Shown here in pieces: positions 525 through 7,358 of a stretch of DNA of 9,128 nt. The DNA is taken from assembly GCA_938045315.1 (NCBI GenBank), contig CALINM010000042.1:1-9128 (forward strand), given 5' to 3'. How positions within the stretch are numbered: position 1 is the stretch's first letter; every line of letters begins with the position of its first letter. Below the pieces are notes generated by a model that saw nothing but the letters and a program-made list of their open reading frames with translations, searched no databases and was not told where the DNA came from. A program made the position numbers and the translations under genes. Source of the DNA: an uncultured bacterium. Lineage in GTDB: Bacteria > CALINM01.

Positions 525-1030
525 AAGCTTTTTTCCATTTGTTTCTTTAACCTTTTTATTATTAATTCTCGCCTTATAGTACTCAATCTATCAATAAAAA
601 GCTTACCATCTAAGTGATCATTTTCATGTTGAATTGCCCTTGCAAGTAATCCCTCGGCAACCAGTTCTTGAATTTCACCTTCCAGATTAATATATCTTAC
701 TATTACTTTTGAAGCCCTTTCAACTGGTGCTGTATAACCAGGTATACTTAGACACCCCTCATCATGCTTTTCCCTACCTTCTTGTAAAAGTATCTCCGGG
801 TTTATAAAAATAATCGGCTTTGGGTTCTCTTCAAGTTGATCTACATCAATAACAAAAAGTCTTATAGGTATTCCTACCTGAGTTGCCGCAAGCCCAATAC
901 CCTTTGCATGATACATGGTTTCAATCATTGAAGTCGCAATTTTTTTTATATCATCAGTGATATTTTCTATTTTTTTAGCAATAATTCTTAATCTTTGATC
1001 GGGATATTTTAATATTTCCATCACTGCCAT
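521..1030 (-). CDS. def: Peptide deformylase
   Basis: This metalloenzyme removes the N-terminal formyl group from nascent proteins. All three family motifs are intact. Numbered from the chosen start they are GIGLAATQ (44-51), EGCLS (91-95, metal-ligand Cys93) and QHENDH (134-139, metal ligands His135 and His139, catalytic Glu136). The length of 169 residues is normal. I chose the ATG at 1030 because an AAGGAG Shine-Dalgarno (about 1046-1041) lies 8 bases upstream. The GTG at 1039 runs straight into that SD and is too close to be used. The ATG at 1021 (MEILKYPD) is possible but more distant from the SD. The 5' end overlaps the polyferredoxin gene by 56 bases, so the SD lies inside that coding sequence. 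The 3' end overlaps fmt by 4 bases. Confidence 0.97.
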   Translation of the reverse strand: MAVMEILKYPDQRLRIIAKKIENITDDIKKIATSMIETMYHAKGIGLAATQVGIPIRLFVIDVDQLEENPKPIIFINPEILLQEGREKHDEGCLSIPGYTAPVERASKVIVRYINLEGEIQELVAEGLLARAIQHENDHLDGKLFIDRLSTIRRELIIKRLKKQMEKSL

Positions 1031-2534
1031 ACAAATCACTCCTTATTAAATCTTTGTTCTTAAATACTTCAATTCCAGCCTTTGAAGCAAGCGGACATAC
1101 ATACTCACATATGCCACAACCAATGCACAGTTCATCTACAATATAGGGTTTTTTTATTTCTCTTATCCTGCCTTCAAAGTCTTTTTCCCTTATAACTTCA
1201 AACCTTATAGCCTTTTTCGGAACAGGACAATGCTCTTCACATACCATACAGTTTACTTTTTTTGCATAGGGTAAACAATGATTTTTGTCAAAAACTGCTA
1301 ATCCAATAACCTGCTTCTTTTTTTGTTCCAAAGAAAGATGTGGAATAGCTTTAGTAGGACATACCTGACCACAAAGGGTACAATTATATTCACAATAGCC
1401 CTTTCTTGGCACAAGAACTGGTGTGAAAAGATTGTAAAAACCATAATCAAAATTAGAGGGATACAGGGCATTTTTTAAACAAATTTTAATACATTCACCA
1501 CAACGAACACATTTTTTTAAAAAATCCCTCTCATCTTTAACTCCTGGTGGACGAAGTAACTTACTATAATGTTCATCTCTAAAAAAATTGAAAGTTCCAG
1601 CAGTAAAATAACCTGTCAGAAGCCCTGTTATCAAAACCCTTCTTTTAGAAAAATTAGTTTTAAGCTCAGGTTTGACAGAAAAACTGTAATTAACTCTATT
1701 AAATTTACACTTAATCTTACAATTCATGCACACAATACATTCTTCTTTTTGCAAAATATCTTTATCAAAACTGGTGGGACAAATATTTTTACAGTCGCCA
1801 CAATCTTTACAAAGGCCATTAGGAACCCTTCTAAAAACAGAAAACTTACTAATTAATCCAAGTAATGTCCCAAGAGGGCACAAATTCTTGCACCAGTTTC
1901 TTTTTTCAAATCTTTCAAGTAATATAATAAAGAAAAAAATGAAAAAAGAAAAAAAAGCTAAAGGATATATTGTCTCTCTGAAAGGGAGTACATGGGATTT
2001 TAAAAAATTATAAAAAAAAGAGATGATATCCCTCTTTTCTCCAAAGATTTTATATAAACCAGTCCAACTGGTTTTGATAGAGTCAGCAAATACAGGGAAG
2101 AAAGAAAATGTTAAAAATCTGACAAGAATTGCTATGGGGTCTAAAAGACCAACAATATTAATTCCAAAAAGGGAAACAAACAAAAGAAAAACAAGTAAAT
2201 AATATTTAAAACTCCCCCATGTTATTTTTCTTTCTTTTTTTTTGATGAAGTTTGAAAATAAATCAATAGTTGTACCAAGAGGACAAATCCAACCACAAAA
2301 AAAACGCCCTAAAAAAAAGCAAAAAACTATAAGCAAAATGGCAGGAAAAAGAAGCCATGAAAAAGAAAATGTGGATAATAAATAGGAAAATAAAACAAGG
2401 GGATTAGCTCTAAAAAAACTATTTATCGCTAAAGATATATCATCTTTTCCCCTATACTCAGTGTTTACAAACAAAAAAAGAAAAATTAAAAGAAAAAAAA
2501 ATTGAAAAAAACGAGCTAAGTTAACCTTTTTCAT
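975..2534 (-). CDS. NapH-like membrane polyferredoxin (4Fe-4S binding protein)
   Basis: This is a 519-residue predicted electron-transfer protein. The Phe-rich N-terminal half has about five hydrophobic segments (roughly 8-24, 48-76, 112-131, 134-150 and 189-206). Two CxxxCP motifs, C80-C84P and C215-C219P, follow hydrophobic segments as in NapH, NosR and RdxA-type proteins. The soluble half carries six cysteine groups: 242/245/248/252, 266/269/272/276, 342/345/348/352, 381/385/388/392, 420/429/432/436 and 470/473/476/480. Most are classic CxxCxxCxxxC(P); the fourth is Cx3Cx2Cx3CP and the fifth has a wide first gap (Cx8Cx2Cx3CP). A hydrophobic patch at about 299-314 may be another membrane segment. 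The architecture resembles NapH fused to a NapG/MauM-type ferredoxin. A role passing electrons between the quinone pool or another donor and a periplasmic partner is inference. The start overlaps the upstream DUF362 stop as TAATG. The last 18 residues overlap def. Confidence 0.9.
   Translation of the reverse strand: MKKVNLARFFQFFFLLIFLFLFVNTEYRGKDDISLAINSFFRANPLVLFSYLLSTFSFSWLLFPAILLIVFCFFLGRFFCGWICPLGTTIDLFSNFIKKKERKITWGSFKYYLLVFLLFVSLFGINIVGLLDPIAILVRFLTFSFFPVFADSIKTSWTGLYKIFGEKRDIISFFYNFLKSHVLPFRETIYPLAFFSFFIFFFIILLERFEKRNWCKNLCPLGTLLGLISKFSVFRRVPNGLCKDCGDCKNICPTSFDKDILQKEECIVCMNCKIKCKFNRVNYSFSVKPELKTNFSKRRVLITGLLTGYFTAGTFNFFRDEHYSKLLRPPGVKDERDFLKKCVRCGECIKICLKNALYPSNFDYGFYNLFTPVLVPRKGYCEYNCTLCGQVCPTKAIPHLSLEQKKKQVIGLAVFDKNHCLPYAKKVNCMVCEEHCPVPKKAIRFEVIREKDFEGRIREIKKPYIVDELCIGCGICEYVCPLASKAGIEVFKNKDLIRSDLYGSDGNIKISRSKIKNYC
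1041..1046 (-). promoter_or_regulatory. Shine-Dalgarno for def, inside the polyferredoxin gene
   Basis: AAGGAG on the minus strand, 8 bases before the ATG at 1030. It decides the def start against the GTG at 1039 and lies inside the last codons of the polyferredoxin gene. Confidence 0.8.
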
Positions 2535-3415
2535 TAGACTTTAATCACTTTAGCCTTGGATATGCTTATTTCACCAAGCCCACGTTTAAAGGCTTCCACT
2601 GTTATTGGTATATCTTCAGGCTTTTTACCAAACATAGTCGTTGCATAAGCATCAGCTAAAACAATATCTTTTGATGCTATCACTTTATTTAAAATCTTTA
2701 CATCCCTTATATCGCCCCCTTGAGGTCCGTGGTTTAATAAAATTCTTGTGGCATCAATAATTGTAAGGTGCGTTTTTACAACGGTATTAATATCTGCAAG
2801 TGCAGTTTCAATATTCCTATGTATGTATCCTCTATTGCCACCCATAATACCCATGACATTCTTCAATGCAAGTGTAAGTATAGTAAGTCCATGATGTTTT
2901 GCTATGGGTACGTTAATTAAGACATTTGCATCTAAAACTTCGTCATACAACTCCCACTCTTTTAAAAATCTACCATTTAGAATAACGTTCTTAAATCTTT
3001 CGAACTCAATTTGCTTCAGCTCAACCTTTTTCATATTTTTAAATACGGAGTTGAATCCACTTGATTCATAACATCTCCTTGGATCATTACATGTCCTGTC
3101 AAAAATCTTTACTTTTTTAGCACCTGCTTTAATACACTCCTCGGCTATTGCTTTTACAACAAGAGGATGTGTATTTGCAGCTTGTTCGGGAGTTCTGTCC
3201 CATCCAATATTTGGTTTAATAACAACAACATCACCGGGCTTCACAAATTTAGTTATCCCACCTAAAGCATTAATAACATCCTTTGTAATCTTCTCATAAT
3301 CCCTGCCTTCAGATACAGCTAGAGTTTTTGGTTCTGATGCTTTTGTAATATCTAATGAAGTGAGGTTTACTAAAAAAGAAGATCCAATAAATTTTAAAAA
3401 ATTTCTTCTTTTCAT
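2534..3415 (-). CDS. DUF362 domain-containing protein with Tat-like N-terminus
   Basis: This 293-residue protein has the DUF362 hallmarks: VVIKPNIGWDR at about 64-74, LINVPIAKHHGLTILTLALK (166-185) followed by NVMGIMGG, and IIDATRILLNHGPQGG at about 219-234. The N-terminus MKRRNFLKFIGSSFLVNL resembles a twin-arginine signal (RRxFLK) followed by a hydrophobic stretch, which suggests export or membrane anchoring on the outer face. The first residue of the classic motif (S/T) is replaced by K. DUF362 has no generally agreed biochemical role, and members often sit next to 4Fe-4S proteins. Here the stop codon overlaps the polyferredoxin start as TAATG, so the two are probably translated together and may work together. 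No clear SD precedes the ATG. It begins 2 bases after the preceding stop, so coupling is likely. The gene appears intact. Confidence 0.9.
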   Translation of the reverse strand: MKRRNFLKFIGSSFLVNLTSLDITKASEPKTLAVSEGRDYEKITKDVINALGGITKFVKPGDVVVIKPNIGWDRTPEQAANTHPLVVKAIAEECIKAGAKKVKIFDRTCNDPRRCYESSGFNSVFKNMKKVELKQIEFERFKNVILNGRFLKEWELYDEVLDANVLINVPIAKHHGLTILTLALKNVMGIMGGNRGYIHRNIETALADINTVVKTHLTIIDATRILLNHGPQGGDIRDVKILNKVIASKDIVLADAYATTMFGKKPEDIPITVEAFKRGLGEISISKAKVIKV

Positions 3416-3417
3416 AA

Positions 3418-3957
3418 CTAAATTAAGCTTTTAGATTTTAAAAAATCCCTTACAGTATCTTTTACGCCCTTTTTTTCCACATCTTTTACAAGATCAGAAA
3501 TTATAGAGGGCAATAACAGCCCATTAAACTTTTCTATAAGCCTTGGAAGGGCTGGAAATTTTTTCAATGTATCTTTCCTGATTATAGACACTAAATAATC
3601 ATCTTTCTGTTCTATCAAGGGTTTTAAAAAAACAAGATTATACCTTGTATTAAAATCATTTTTGGACTTATCAAAATCTACAGTTTTTGAGAAACTACTT
3701 ACTTTCCTGCTATCAAAAACAACCAAATCTACTTCACCAGATGAAGCAGCATCAATTATGGCACCTGTGTCGTTAAATTTTTTTAATTTTACTGAAGTAC
3801 CAGTTCTCTCTGTTATTAGCCTTGAAAGTATATTACTGATAATTTCATCCTCCCTTGTATCCAGATGGCCAATATAAATAGTTTTGCCCACGCATGCATC
3901 GGAAATTCCTTGAAGCAGTATAATCATCAAAAAAGCAATTAAAACTCTTCTAAACAT
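3418..3957 (-). CDS. Short OpuAC-like periplasmic substrate-binding protein
   Basis: This 179-residue exported protein resembles the OpuAC/OsmF (glycine betaine-type) binding-protein fold. After a signal peptide (about 1-21, probable cleavage after SDA) comes GKTIYIGHLDTREDEIISN, then ITERTG, matching the usual strand-helix opening of that family. Next is DTGAIIDAASSGEVDLVV, which corresponds to the segment before the EYTGT motif. The C-terminus, with RKDTLKKFPALPRLIEKFNG and a final VRDFLKSKSLI, matches the family's closing helices. Typical members are about 270 residues, so the middle, which includes ligand-contact regions, is much reduced and the canonical EYTGT motif is missing. No ABC permease or ATPase is present in the window. 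It may therefore be a sensor or partner protein rather than a transporter component. An SD (GGAGAG, about 9 bases upstream) supports the ATG at 3957. The start lies inside the 3' end of the beta-helix gene. Confidence 0.72.
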   Translation of the reverse strand: MFRRVLIAFLMIILLQGISDACVGKTIYIGHLDTREDEIISNILSRLITERTGTSVKLKKFNDTGAIIDAASSGEVDLVVFDSRKVSSFSKTVDFDKSKNDFNTRYNLVFLKPLIEQKDDYLVSIIRKDTLKKFPALPRLIEKFNGLLLPSIISDLVKDVEKKGVKDTVRDFLKSKSLI

Positions 3958-4785
3958 CGAATATTACTCTCCATAAATGGTTTTTTTGATAGGGGTTTAA
4001 TATTAATTTTTGGTAAACTTTTATCAAAATTCTTATCATATATATTCTTTCTAATTTCCCTATCAAAAACTGTACCAAAATAGTTATTTTTAAAATTTAA
4101 ATCTTCCTTTTGTTCATCACCCACTTTTATATTATAAACATTTTTTCCATATTGTTATACCTGAAATTAACTTTATGCTGCATTTTGTAACTGGAAAAAT
4201 ACCAATCTCATTTTCAAATATAGAATTATACTCCACAATTCCCTGTGAATCCCTTTCCTCATATCTTATACCATGACGATTTTAAGTCATTTTATTGTTA
4301 CAAACATAAATATTTGACGTTGAAAATCTAAATCCATCGATATTATTTCTAAAAACTGAGTTTTTTACTACAGCCTTAGTGAAGTGAACCTGGAGGCCAG
4401 AAAATGCACCTTCAAATATAGCATAATCAATATAAGCATAATTTGCGTGATTTACCATTACATATTTCCATGATGAGGGAGATTTTTCCTGACTATCCGA
4501 TGTAAATATAACGGGCATATATTTTGTACCTTTAACTATTAAAGTTCCTTCAACATATAACTCACTATCACCTATACCATCATCATCTATATCAATGCTT
4601 TTGAATATTACCTCAGTACCTGGTTCTATCGTCAATTTGCCATTTTTTTTCACTGCAACTATACCTGTAATAAATACCTTACCCTTCCAAATTTCTTCAT
4701 ACCTAATTTCCCTAACGGGCAAAGAAAATGCATTTAGTGACAAGGAAGAACATAAAAACAAGCAGAGGGTCAAAAAAATTTTCAT
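3939..4785 (-). pseudogene. Secreted right-handed beta-helix protein, broken by an in-frame stop and a frameshift
   Basis: The intact reading frame begins at the ATG at 4785, overlapping the upstream stop as ATGA. It starts with a signal peptide (MKIFLTLCLFLCSSLSLNAF). Then come GKLTIEPGTEVIFK, an Asp-rich DIDDDGIGDSEL segment (about 65-76, possibly Ca-binding), VEGTLIVKGT and PVIFTS. Short strand repeats such as YIDYAIFEGAFSGLQVHF and VVKNSVFRNNIDGFRFSTS follow, typical of parallel beta-helix proteins. A TAA at 4284-4282 ends this ORF at 167 residues. The same frame then continues with recognisable beta-helix sequence (NRHGIRYEERDSQGIVEYNS, ending NEIGIF). At a run of five A/T pairs (4195-4199) the coding sense shifts by one base. 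The family's tail then continues: YKMQHKVNFRYNN, VYNIKVGDEQKED and NNYFGT, finishing at 3939. Adding one T to the run restores the frame. Without the lesions the product would be about 280 residues. A 167-residue secreted product could still be made. Confidence 0.8.
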
Positions 4786-5192
4786 CTTAAGATTTTTCTA
4801 AGGGTTATAGTTATATTTTCCACATCATTTTCTACAAAATTATGGTGATCATAAGTTTTATCATATAAACCATATAATTCACCCTGAATAGGTGTTCCCC
4901 CATAGAACTGCCTCACTCCAATATAATATTTACCCTTTTCAGGTAAATAAAGTTCAAAAAAACCATCTTCTCTTGTTTTCTTTGATATGCTTACAGGTCT
5001 CTCATGTCCCATTTCCTTATTTTTATATGCAAAAGCATAAACGCCTGATACAGGCCTTCCATTTTCATCAAGGGCATAACCAGTTAACTTATATTTTGGT
5101 TTGACTTGATAAGGTAAATCATCTTGATTTTTTTTAAAAATGGGAATTTTAATATAATATTTTTTCCCTTTTCTTTGTAATCGGGAAAACAA
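4782..5192 (-). pseudogene. Carboxypeptidase-regulatory-like (transthyretin-like) domain fragment
   Basis: This open frame codes for up to 136 residues. YKLTGYALDENGRPVSGVYA followed by an Ala/Tyr-rich strand, KTREDGFFELYLPEKGKYYI and a final VENITITLRKIL are typical of CarboxypepD_reg or Cna-B-like seven-strand folds found in periplasmic or surface proteins. The ORF has no signal peptide and only a TTG (5192) as a possible start. No convincing Shine-Dalgarno precedes it, and a TAA in this frame lies directly upstream. It therefore looks like the C-terminal domain of a longer, probably multi-domain exported protein whose front has been lost, or it is expressed by fusion with the frame that starts at 5298. 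Its stop overlaps the beta-helix start as ATGA, so the two were probably one operon pair. The name fragment is my interpretation; a functional short protein is not excluded. Confidence 0.6.
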
Positions 5193-5298
5193 TTAATTCA
5201 TCTACTTTCTTTTTTACGTCGAACAATCCACCTATATCCTTAAAATCAATTCTCGGTTCTCTAACTTCATAATAAATTTTCTCAAGAATTCGATGCAT
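5149..5298 (-). CDS. 49-residue ORF with AAA+-like N-terminal sequence, probably truncated or frameshifted
   Basis: This small ORF has a good start. The ATG overlaps the zinc-ribbon gene's stop as TAATG, and a GAGG Shine-Dalgarno lies 7 bases upstream. It encodes MHRILEKIYYEVREP, then IDFKDIGGLFDVKKKVDELI at about 17-36 and a Lys-rich end. The DIGGLxDVKKxxxELIxxPI pattern resembles the segment just before the Walker A region of Cdc48/Vps4-type AAA+ ATPases, but no Walker motif follows. After a run of six identical bases (5160-5165) the frame ends at a TAA. Removing one base from that run would join it to the transthyretin-like frame downstream (KREK then YYIKIPIF). It may be the remnant of an ATPase gene cut by a deletion, the true 5' end of the downstream gene with a homopolymer indel, or a genuine small protein. 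The family assignment is tentative. Confidence 0.45.
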   Translation of the reverse strand: MHRILEKIYYEVREPRIDFKDIGGLFDVKKKVDELIVFPITKKREKILY

Positions 5299-6593
5299 TA
5301 TACACCCTCTACTTCTATAAACTCCGCATCCTGAGGCAACTTGTCAAAAACTAACATAAAATCAATTAGTTTTCCCGGTGGCACATCAACATTAACCATT
5401 GATTTTCCCATTTTGTTATTAAGACCTTTTTCAATCTCTGTATAGGTAAGTTCTTTTAATTCAGCATCTGTAAATATATTTCCAGCAAAAACAACTTTTT
5501 CTGCTAACTTCACATTGTTTTTCCCATATACGGTGCATTTTATTTTCAAAAAACTTTTAGGTACGTTAAATTCATTTTTGATCTTACCTGTTACAATGAA
5601 AATTTGAGCTGGATCTTTTGCCTCTCCATATTTGGTTTTTACATTAGTTATACCAATACTACCCATATTTTCAACCATTTTTAATCTCTTCCACCACATA
5701 TAACCAGTACCTCCACCTCCAATAACAACCACAATTAATATACTTATTAAAATGCTCAGTATATTAAATCTTTTTGTAGTTGGCGCTACAAAATCCTCAA
5801 CATGAGGAGATATATTTTCATTAGAAATATTAGCTTGTTCAAAATCTTTGTTAATTATTTCATCCACTTCAGTTTTTGAATCAGTTTTTACATTCTTATC
5901 TTCAATAAACTTTTTATCATTAATATCAATTTCAAAATCCTCTTTTTTTTCAGTCAAACTTTCTTGTTCTTCATTGAATTCAAATTCATTTACTTTTTCA
6001 AAAAATAAATCCTGCTCTTGACTTTGTATAGTGAACTCTTCTTTTGTTTTATCTTCCTCTTGAAAATCGAATTCTTTTTTTGGCTCTCCTCCGTCTTGAA
6101 CTAAAAAATCAAAATCAGGCGTTGAAGTCTCTAAAATATCTTCTTTCCCTTCCAAAAGAGTATCATCTTTTTTTTGTTGCTCCTCATATGATTCTTCGAA
6201 AACTTTTTCTTTATCCATCTCTATATTTATTTCTCCAAATGTAGAACTTTCTAAAGAGCTTTGAGTCTCTCCGTAATTCAATTCATTAGTAAATTTTTCC
6301 CAATTAAACTCCTGTTGTAATTCTTCTTTATCTTCTTCAAAAGTAGGTTTATCAGAAAATAATTCCTTCTCCAATTTTTCAGTATCCTGTTGAACATTCA
6401 ATGATGAATCCATTAATCCTAATTGCTGTGTTGTCTCTGATAATATCTCCTCACCCCGTTCAATTTCTTCTTTTTCTGGGAAAACAAAAAACACATGATT
6501 ACATTTTTTACACTTAACTTTTACCCCTTCAGGTTTTACCTTAGAATCATCTAATTTAAACTTTGTCTTACATTCATCACATTGTATTATCAT
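5298..6593 (-). CDS. MJ0042-type zinc-ribbon membrane protein with DUF3426-like C-terminal domain
   Basis: This 431-residue protein begins with an MJ0042-type zinc ribbon: CDEC (Cys5, Cys8), then the FKLDDSKVKPEGVKVKC segment and CKKC (Cys28, Cys31), which would bind one zinc. Residues about 40-270 form a long acidic, Glu/Gln/Lys-rich linker, probably disordered. A single transmembrane helix lies at about 277-299 (NILSILISILIVVVIGGGG). The last 120 residues (ITNVKTKYGEAKDP, IFIVTGKIKNEF, DVPPGKLIDFMLVF) match the DUF3426 beta-sandwich, expected on the periplasmic side. The zinc ribbon and linker would be cytoplasmic. Function is not established; proteins of this layout are seen in Deltaproteobacteria and relatives. 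The start is supported by a GAGAGG SD about 7 bases upstream. The stop overlaps the next ATG by one base. Confidence 0.85.
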   Translation of the reverse strand: MIIQCDECKTKFKLDDSKVKPEGVKVKCKKCNHVFFVFPEKEEIERGEEILSETTQQLGLMDSSLNVQQDTEKLEKELFSDKPTFEEDKEELQQEFNWEKFTNELNYGETQSSLESSTFGEINIEMDKEKVFEESYEEQQKKDDTLLEGKEDILETSTPDFDFLVQDGGEPKKEFDFQEEDKTKEEFTIQSQEQDLFFEKVNEFEFNEEQESLTEKKEDFEIDINDKKFIEDKNVKTDSKTEVDEIINKDFEQANISNENISPHVEDFVAPTTKRFNILSILISILIVVVIGGGGTGYMWWKRLKMVENMGSIGITNVKTKYGEAKDPAQIFIVTGKIKNEFNVPKSFLKIKCTVYGKNNVKLAEKVVFAGNIFTDAELKELTYTEIEKGLNNKMGKSMVNVDVPPGKLIDFMLVFDKLPQDAEFIEVEGV

Positions 6594-6614: not shown

Positions 6615-7358
6615 TTAAAATGTTATAGCACCCTTTAAAGAATAAACTGGTTTGAACTCATTCAGTTCAATTTCGCCTGTTATAGATAATAAAACAATTG
6701 TAAGCCTCGCTCCAACAAAAGCTTTATAATAGGTCTTTCTCTCCTCCTTCAAACTAAGCCCAGATGGAAAAGCTGCAGAAGCATATCCTCTTGGAATGCT
6801 TTCAAATCTATTCAAACCCACTCCACCATAAGGTGTTAACATTAAAAAACCTTTGCTAATTGAAGCATCCACACCATATGTTTTAAAATCTAACTCACTT
6901 ACACCTGATAGTTGAGTATAATTACCTCTTAATGCTATAGCAGGTGTAACTGTACTACCTTCAAGTATTGAGTATTTTATTTCCCCACCATATAACTTAA
7001 TATTTGTATCTGGCACTTGAGAATAATAAGCACCTATATCGAAACCTAAAGGAAGTCCCTTTATAACTCTAATTTTGGGAATAAAAATATAAGATGGTGC
7101 ATCATTATCTCGAACTGCATTCTTCCATACTCTATCACTAATATTAACAGCTGTAATTTCAACACCCACATCAAAACCTAATATCCCCAAAGGTTCAGCT
7201 GGTGAGAGGGGTTTAAAAGACGTTGCCACTGCAAATTCCTTTGAAAAATCTCTAAATGTAGATTGGGTCATACCAAGAGAAAATTTAATATCATCAAGTG
7301 CTAAAGTAGTAGTACAGGTAATTAAAACTAAAATAATAGTAATTAATAATTTTTTCAT
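6615..7358 (-). CDS. Secreted protein, probable outer-membrane beta-barrel
   Basis: This is a 247-residue protein of unknown function. It has a clear signal peptide (MKKLLITIILVLITCTTTLA). The mature part contains alternating hydrophobic/polar strands with Gly and Tyr turns, such as LGFDIGAYYSQVPD, YGVDASISKGFLMLTPYGGV and YKAFVGARLTIVLLSITGEI. It ends in a C-terminal phenylalanine (LKGAITF), the usual outer-membrane-barrel sorting signal. From the length I estimate about 8-12 strands. The start is fixed by a strong AAGGAGG Shine-Dalgarno 4 bases upstream, which sits in the 13-base gap after the nucleotidyltransferase stop. No specific family or substrate could be named from sequence alone. 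Its position before the zinc-ribbon membrane protein suggests an envelope role, but the two are separated by about 20 bases and need not be related. Confidence 0.78.
   Translation of the reverse strand: MKKLLITIILVLITCTTTLALDDIKFSLGMTQSTFRDFSKEFAVATSFKPLSPAEPLGILGFDVGVEITAVNISDRVWKNAVRDNDAPSYIFIPKIRVIKGLPLGFDIGAYYSQVPDTNIKLYGGEIKYSILEGSTVTPAIALRGNYTQLSGVSELDFKTYGVDASISKGFLMLTPYGGVGLNRFESIPRGYASAAFPSGLSLKEERKTYYKAFVGARLTIVLLSITGEIELNEFKPVYSLKGAITF

Follow-up and report, generated by a model that had tools for sequence, protein, structure and literature searches.

The window analysed here is a whole 9128-bp contig (C42) of a metagenome-assembled genome that measures 1.86 Mb in 244 contigs and is 92% complete. 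On its minus strand, from position 3957 to 975, three genes follow one another: a one-lobe OpuAC-type (type-F substrate-binding-protein) periplasmic protein of 179 amino acids with a signal peptide (3418..3957), assigned by Pfam OpuAC, an AlphaFold2 (AF2) model, and structure alignment; a DUF362 protein of 293 amino acids (2534..3415), predicted to be exported by twin-arginine translocation (Tat) and identified by PF04015, its twin arginine, and a LarA-like motif; and a NapH-NapG fusion polyferredoxin of 519 amino acids (975..2534), recognized by NCBIfam NapG/NapH, Pfam Fer4_5/Fer4_7, and conserved cysteines and paired arginines. Pfam scores are 41 bits for OpuAC (cut-off 21.2) and 170.2 bits for DUF362 (cut-off 24), and several Fer4 families score above their cut-offs. 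The genes are as compact as a first-pass annotation of this DNA had described them: a gap of two bases (3416–3417) separates the one-lobe gene from the DUF362 gene, whose stop codon overlaps the polyferredoxin start in the sequence TAATG. The grouping is not due to chance, since two relatives, SKW176 and SKW305, and a second lineage have the trio in identical order. It forms the distal end of a larger conserved cell-envelope redox locus, the core of which is the DUF362-polyferredoxin pair.

The NapH half of the polyferredoxin contains four hydrophobic helices, two CX3CP motifs, and two [4Fe-4S] motifs, and the NapG half contributes four further [4Fe-4S] motifs. Between them, ahead of the NapG half, lies an internal twin-arginine segment (SKRRVLITGLL, at about residues 297–320), whose arginine pair is kept in 36 of 38 aligned homologues. 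The six iron-sulfur cysteine groups counted by the first-pass annotation are real: of the 30 cysteines, 28 recur in 36 to 38 of the 38 homologues. The 3' end of the gene (975–1039) extends beyond that of relatives and runs into the start of the gene for peptide deformylase. NCBIfam models for NapG and NapH match different halves of the protein, both below their curated cut-offs (97.6 versus 269 bits and 84.5 versus 234 bits, respectively). The likeness to the NapGH quinol dehydrogenase lies in the two halves; the differences are that the window protein is encoded by one fused gene, scores below those cut-offs, and has DUF362 as its probable partner. No nap reductase genes were recognized in the window or in the loci of relatives, and both a nap and a nos operon were dropped as readings for want of reductase genes.

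As judged from its sequence, the protein fits the known family of dual Sec/Tat polyferredoxins of NapH-NapG architecture, in which the member from MLMS-1 (Q1NSB0) was shown to need both Sec and Tat (Tooke et al. 2017, PMC5449189). Both proteins are NapH-NapG fusions with clusters on either side of the membrane, and in both a twin arginine immediately precedes the fifth helix. Motif counting gives six clusters for the window protein, compared with the seven given in PMC5449189, a paper that makes no mention of DUF362. The idea that the trio is an undescribed system stands only in part: the polyferredoxin belongs with a described family, and our search of the literature for DUF362 together with a polyferredoxin found no paper describing the pair.

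The first-pass annotation had also read the cluster as a redox unit of the cell envelope, in which an exported DUF362 protein stands beside a membrane polyferredoxin, and both motifs and gene positions support it. A cytoplasmic location is not predicted for this DUF362 protein, as 34 of 35 homologues carry the twin arginine. We surveyed 290 genomes that span many families, mostly with one genome per family, a sample that limits relatedness and does not remove it. DUF362 profile matches at E ≤ 1e-35 occur in 75 of these genomes and polyferredoxin matches in 44. A Tat-type DUF362 gene lies within 3 kb of the polyferredoxin gene for 35 of the 44 polyferredoxin matches, always on the same strand and upstream in 34. 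Outside the family of the window, 32 of 41 polyferredoxin matches have a nearby DUF362 gene. By a rough estimate, at an assumed density of one or two of these genes in every 3 Mb, co-location by chance would be expected in less than 1% of cases. A comparison of the window with SKW176 reveals purifying selection on both genes (nonsynonymous divergence, dN, 0.11 and synonymous divergence, dS, 2.6 for DUF362; dN 0.16 and dS 1.4 for the polyferredoxin), values comparable to those of the deformylase gene, which follows the polyferredoxin gene and precedes a gene named fmt from its sequence. The pair is strongly co-located, and the trio is rare, full-length one-lobe homologues being present in 7 of the 290 genomes. 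When we looked for a recurring third partner across 37 compared loci, just one family, response regulators apart, was found to recur widely (9 of 37); it includes a DUF6599 protein (L070:10911-11843 and similar) and is sometimes accompanied by a Tat-type aldo-keto reductase-like protein.

SKW176 (G001) and SKW305 (G002) carry the trio within a much longer locus. Its first five genes encode a beta-helix protein with a propeller, a membrane spermidine-synthase-like protein, two carboxypeptidase-regulatory-like proteins, and a beta-helix protein; the last five encode a carboxypeptidase-regulatory-like protein, a beta-helix protein, the one-lobe OpuAC protein, DUF362, and the polyferredoxin. Members of a separate lineage (G110, G290, and G296, with others in part) have this ten-gene order too, at ~25–50% identity, which points to selection on the cluster. 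The G110 contig has genes for a thioredoxin-decaheme cytochrome, a TlpA-like protein, an NHL protein, and a possible outer-membrane protein upstream, a ResB-like cytochrome c biogenesis gene directly after the locus, and genes for an EB_dh-like lipoprotein, a second NapH-like protein, YedE, and GeoRSP radical-SAM proteins downstream. SKW176 and SKW305 also contain a paralogous set in which GeoRSP genes accompany a second one-lobe protein. Separately, GeoRSP radical-SAM/SPASM genes accompanied by a PqqD-like gene were observed at L025:7196-18895, L026:4816-16442, L051, L052, and L057; TIGR04303 (GeoRSP) reaches 410 bits in L026, over its cut-off, most of these loci also hold paired beta-helix genes, a one-lobe OpuAC protein, and an orphan PhnD-like binding protein, and L025, L026, and L057 include a YedE-type transporter. 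The GeoRSP loci look like a conserved system of their own; the literature searched held nothing relevant on GeoRSP or on the locus of the trio.

The Tat-type DUF362 proteins share an invariant motif, H175-x9-K185-x13-H199 (29 of 29 sequences), and nine LarA homologues display H-x9-K-x15-H. DUF362 and LarA are placed in one Pfam clan (CL0471; PMC11770544), and in LarA, K184 and H200 hold the nickel-pincer nucleotide (NPN) cofactor while H174 is catalytic (PMC7583248). The His-x9-Lys spacing is identical in the two families and the Lys-to-His distance is 14 in Tat-DUF362 versus 16 in LarA, making H175, K185, and H199 candidate equivalents of LarA H174, K184, and H200. An HHalign comparison with the nine LarA homologues paired the first His and the Lys without gaps and offset H199 by two residues, an alignment that is not significant alone (probability 0.6%). 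A cytosolic DUF362 protein encoded in the window's genome matches Lar_N weakly and below the cut-off (E = 4.3e-4). In a region of uncertain alignment, R74 (28 of 29 sequences) could match LarA Arg75, and no conserved His corresponds to LarA His108 at positions 106–110 of the 29 sequences, where the alignment is likewise uncertain. The window protein further differs from LarA in being shorter and, by prediction, Tat-exported, with NPN as a putative cofactor. From its sequence, DUF362 looks like a relative of the nickel-cofactor racemases.

The distribution of LarC is mixed. It is present in 30 of 35 pair-bearing genomes versus 122 of 255 others (Fisher p = 2e-5, with phylogeny not corrected for), and it was not found in the genome of the window (92% complete) or in SKW305 (84%). 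Its absence from the window's own genome weakens the nickel-pincer reading. Taking LarC and the motif together, we regard it as unlikely, a guess worth testing, that Tat-DUF362 is a periplasmic redox enzyme of the nickel-pincer or a related type, coupled to quinones through the dual Sec/Tat polyferredoxin, and one of the missing users of NPN in genomes that make this cofactor and lack LarA.

For the locus as a whole, we propose that the polyferredoxin, linked to quinones, supplies electrons to a periplasmic DUF362 enzyme or takes them from it, with the one-lobe protein as an accessory, and we give this account even weight for and against. Four Sec-inserted helices would place two [4Fe-4S] clusters of the polyferredoxin on the cytoplasmic side, and the fifth helix, which carries the internal twin-arginine signal, would move four more clusters across the membrane by Tat; such dual insertion is supported by the conserved sequence and the experimentally tested family member. 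NapGH is established as a link between the menaquinone pool and the periplasm, and by analogy the polyferredoxin may serve the same connection. DUF362 would fold in the cytoplasm, undergo Tat export, and work in the periplasm as a redox enzyme whose active site, as the motif suggests, is related to that of LarA. It would exchange electrons with the polyferredoxin, given that the two are co-located and that the cytosolic DUF362 protein of the same genome (L002) carries an inserted 2×[4Fe-4S] ferredoxin (Fer4 inside DUF362).

Several observations weigh against this proposal. Nine of the 44 polyferredoxin matches have no adjacent DUF362 gene, mostly with the two on different contigs or with no DUF362 gene scoring, and the genes around the pair vary between lineages, so no common substrate pathway is visible. 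A DUF362 structure model built from three sequences was too poor to use (predicted local distance difference test, pLDDT, 44), and searches of PDB sequences with DUF362 returned nothing credible. A redox partner and a maturation factor would look alike from gene position by itself. It is possible, if somewhat unlikely, that DUF362 and the polyferredoxin are maturation factors and not a respiratory enzyme, reducing a cofactor or loading it into another envelope protein of the locus, as NosR and NosD do for nitrous oxide reductase. Both lineages that keep the full locus have beta-helix and transthyretin-fold proteins as neighbours and no evident reductase subunit beside the pair, which would suit such a role, as would the ResB-like gene that directly follows in G110 and the thioredoxin-decaheme cytochrome and TlpA genes further up that contig; however, the pair occurs without those proteins across most other lineages, where a fixed client is not visible. 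As a lead only, Nos loci (NosR or NosG/NosH with NosD) bring a polyferredoxin together with a periplasmic beta-helix protein; the window locus differs in that NosZ, NosL, and NosFY were not recognized there.

The upstream part of the locus is deleted or broken in the window. A beta-helix gene of the same locus (3957..4785, minus strand), intact at 282 amino acids in SKW176, is interrupted by an in-frame stop and a frameshift. Next to it, the 3' part of a carboxypeptidase-regulatory-like (transthyretin-fold) gene (4782..5192, minus strand) has been truncated by a deletion; its intact copy at L021:7164-8174 encodes 336 amino acids. A 5' fragment of an AAA-ATPase gene (5161..5298, minus strand) encodes 46 amino acids with 89% identity to residues 1–46 of L028:14677-15558, and at the deletion junction these residues run into the last part of the carboxypeptidase-regulatory-like gene at GAAAAGGG microhomology. 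Relative to SKW176, ~12.7 kb is absent. Beyond the junction, a DUF6588 protein and a zinc-ribbon DUF3426 membrane protein are encoded side by side (6615–7358 and 5298–6593), in an order kept in both relatives.

This damage, together with the lost spermidine-synthase-like gene, which was not found elsewhere in the genome of the window, could mean that the locus here is a remnant whose trio no longer works in its system, or that the contig is an assembly or strain mixture. We consider this improbable: the three open reading frames are all intact despite the upstream damage and dN against SKW176 is low, although that divergence may for the most part be older than the deletion; the genome in which the lost gene was sought is just 92% complete; and the stretch of microhomology at the junction falls short of what a usual k-mer assembly error would take.

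The first gene of the trio encodes a binding protein reduced to a single lobe. Its AF2 model (pLDDT 80) superimposes on OpuBC, EgtU, and ProX over ~155 of 179 residues (Foldseek, VIA-align; Z ~21). In hmmsearch, profile positions 27–152 and 126–187 align to the two ends of these chains, 18–152 and 222–289, skipping ~100 central residues. The missing part is the second lobe, and the protein is lobe 1 only of a type-F binding protein, sharing the lobe-1 fold and C-terminal helices with OpuAC, OpuBC, EgtU, and ProX and differing in the lack of lobe 2 and of nearby transporter genes. As the first-pass annotation stated, the protein has no transporter partner: no ABC transporter genes adjoin its gene in the window or in relatives. 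A glycine betaine uptake system was dropped, as there is no permease and one lobe only. The sole cysteine is invariant and sits at the predicted mature N terminus, within an AC[VIF]G motif found in all full-length homologues. The predicted cleavage sites (SDA|C, SKA|C, VHA|C, and AEA|C), judged by eye, resemble those of signal peptidase I rather than a lipobox, and ordinary lipoprotein anchoring was dropped for want of a clear lipobox. A protein from Rhodothermus marinus, a single-domain substrate-binding protein, is likewise cut to one domain with its partner unknown, and differs in resembling amino-acid binding proteins and lying near chemotaxis genes (PMC10805632).

In four of the seven surveyed genomes with full-length homologues, the one-lobe gene lies beside DUF362. 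In the phylum of G110, 8 of 12 genomes have a one-lobe match, with further members beside DUF362, and a contig scan with the one-lobe protein gave matches in SKW176 and SKW305 only; the phyla searched around G110 and G287 are very small (12 and 2 genomes, respectively). Altogether, the adjacency is kept in about ten genomes of two lineages. Because one lobe is missing, the two-lobe cleft cannot form, ligand clamping is probably impossible, and the protein would instead be an accessory, probably a docking or scaffold partner. The earlier suggestion of a ligand-responsive or substrate-specific unit, in which the OpuAC-like protein, on binding a small molecule, would gate either DUF362 or the polyferredoxin, draws on the clear OpuAC fold, the signal peptide, and this adjacency, and is very improbable with a single lobe and a pair that lacks the one-lobe protein in most genomes.

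A binding protein cut down to a single conserved lobe, whose N-terminal cysteine is invariant, is a second unusual part of the locus. DUF362 proteins are widespread and lack an agreed function, and dual Sec/Tat polyferredoxins have been studied for their insertion rather than their function. The LarA-type motif gives the search for a cofactor a definite candidate, and ~15% of genomes surveyed elsewhere carry larB, larE, and larC without larA (PMC11796402). A pair that travels together across dozens of families offers each of the two proteins a partner and a direct test.

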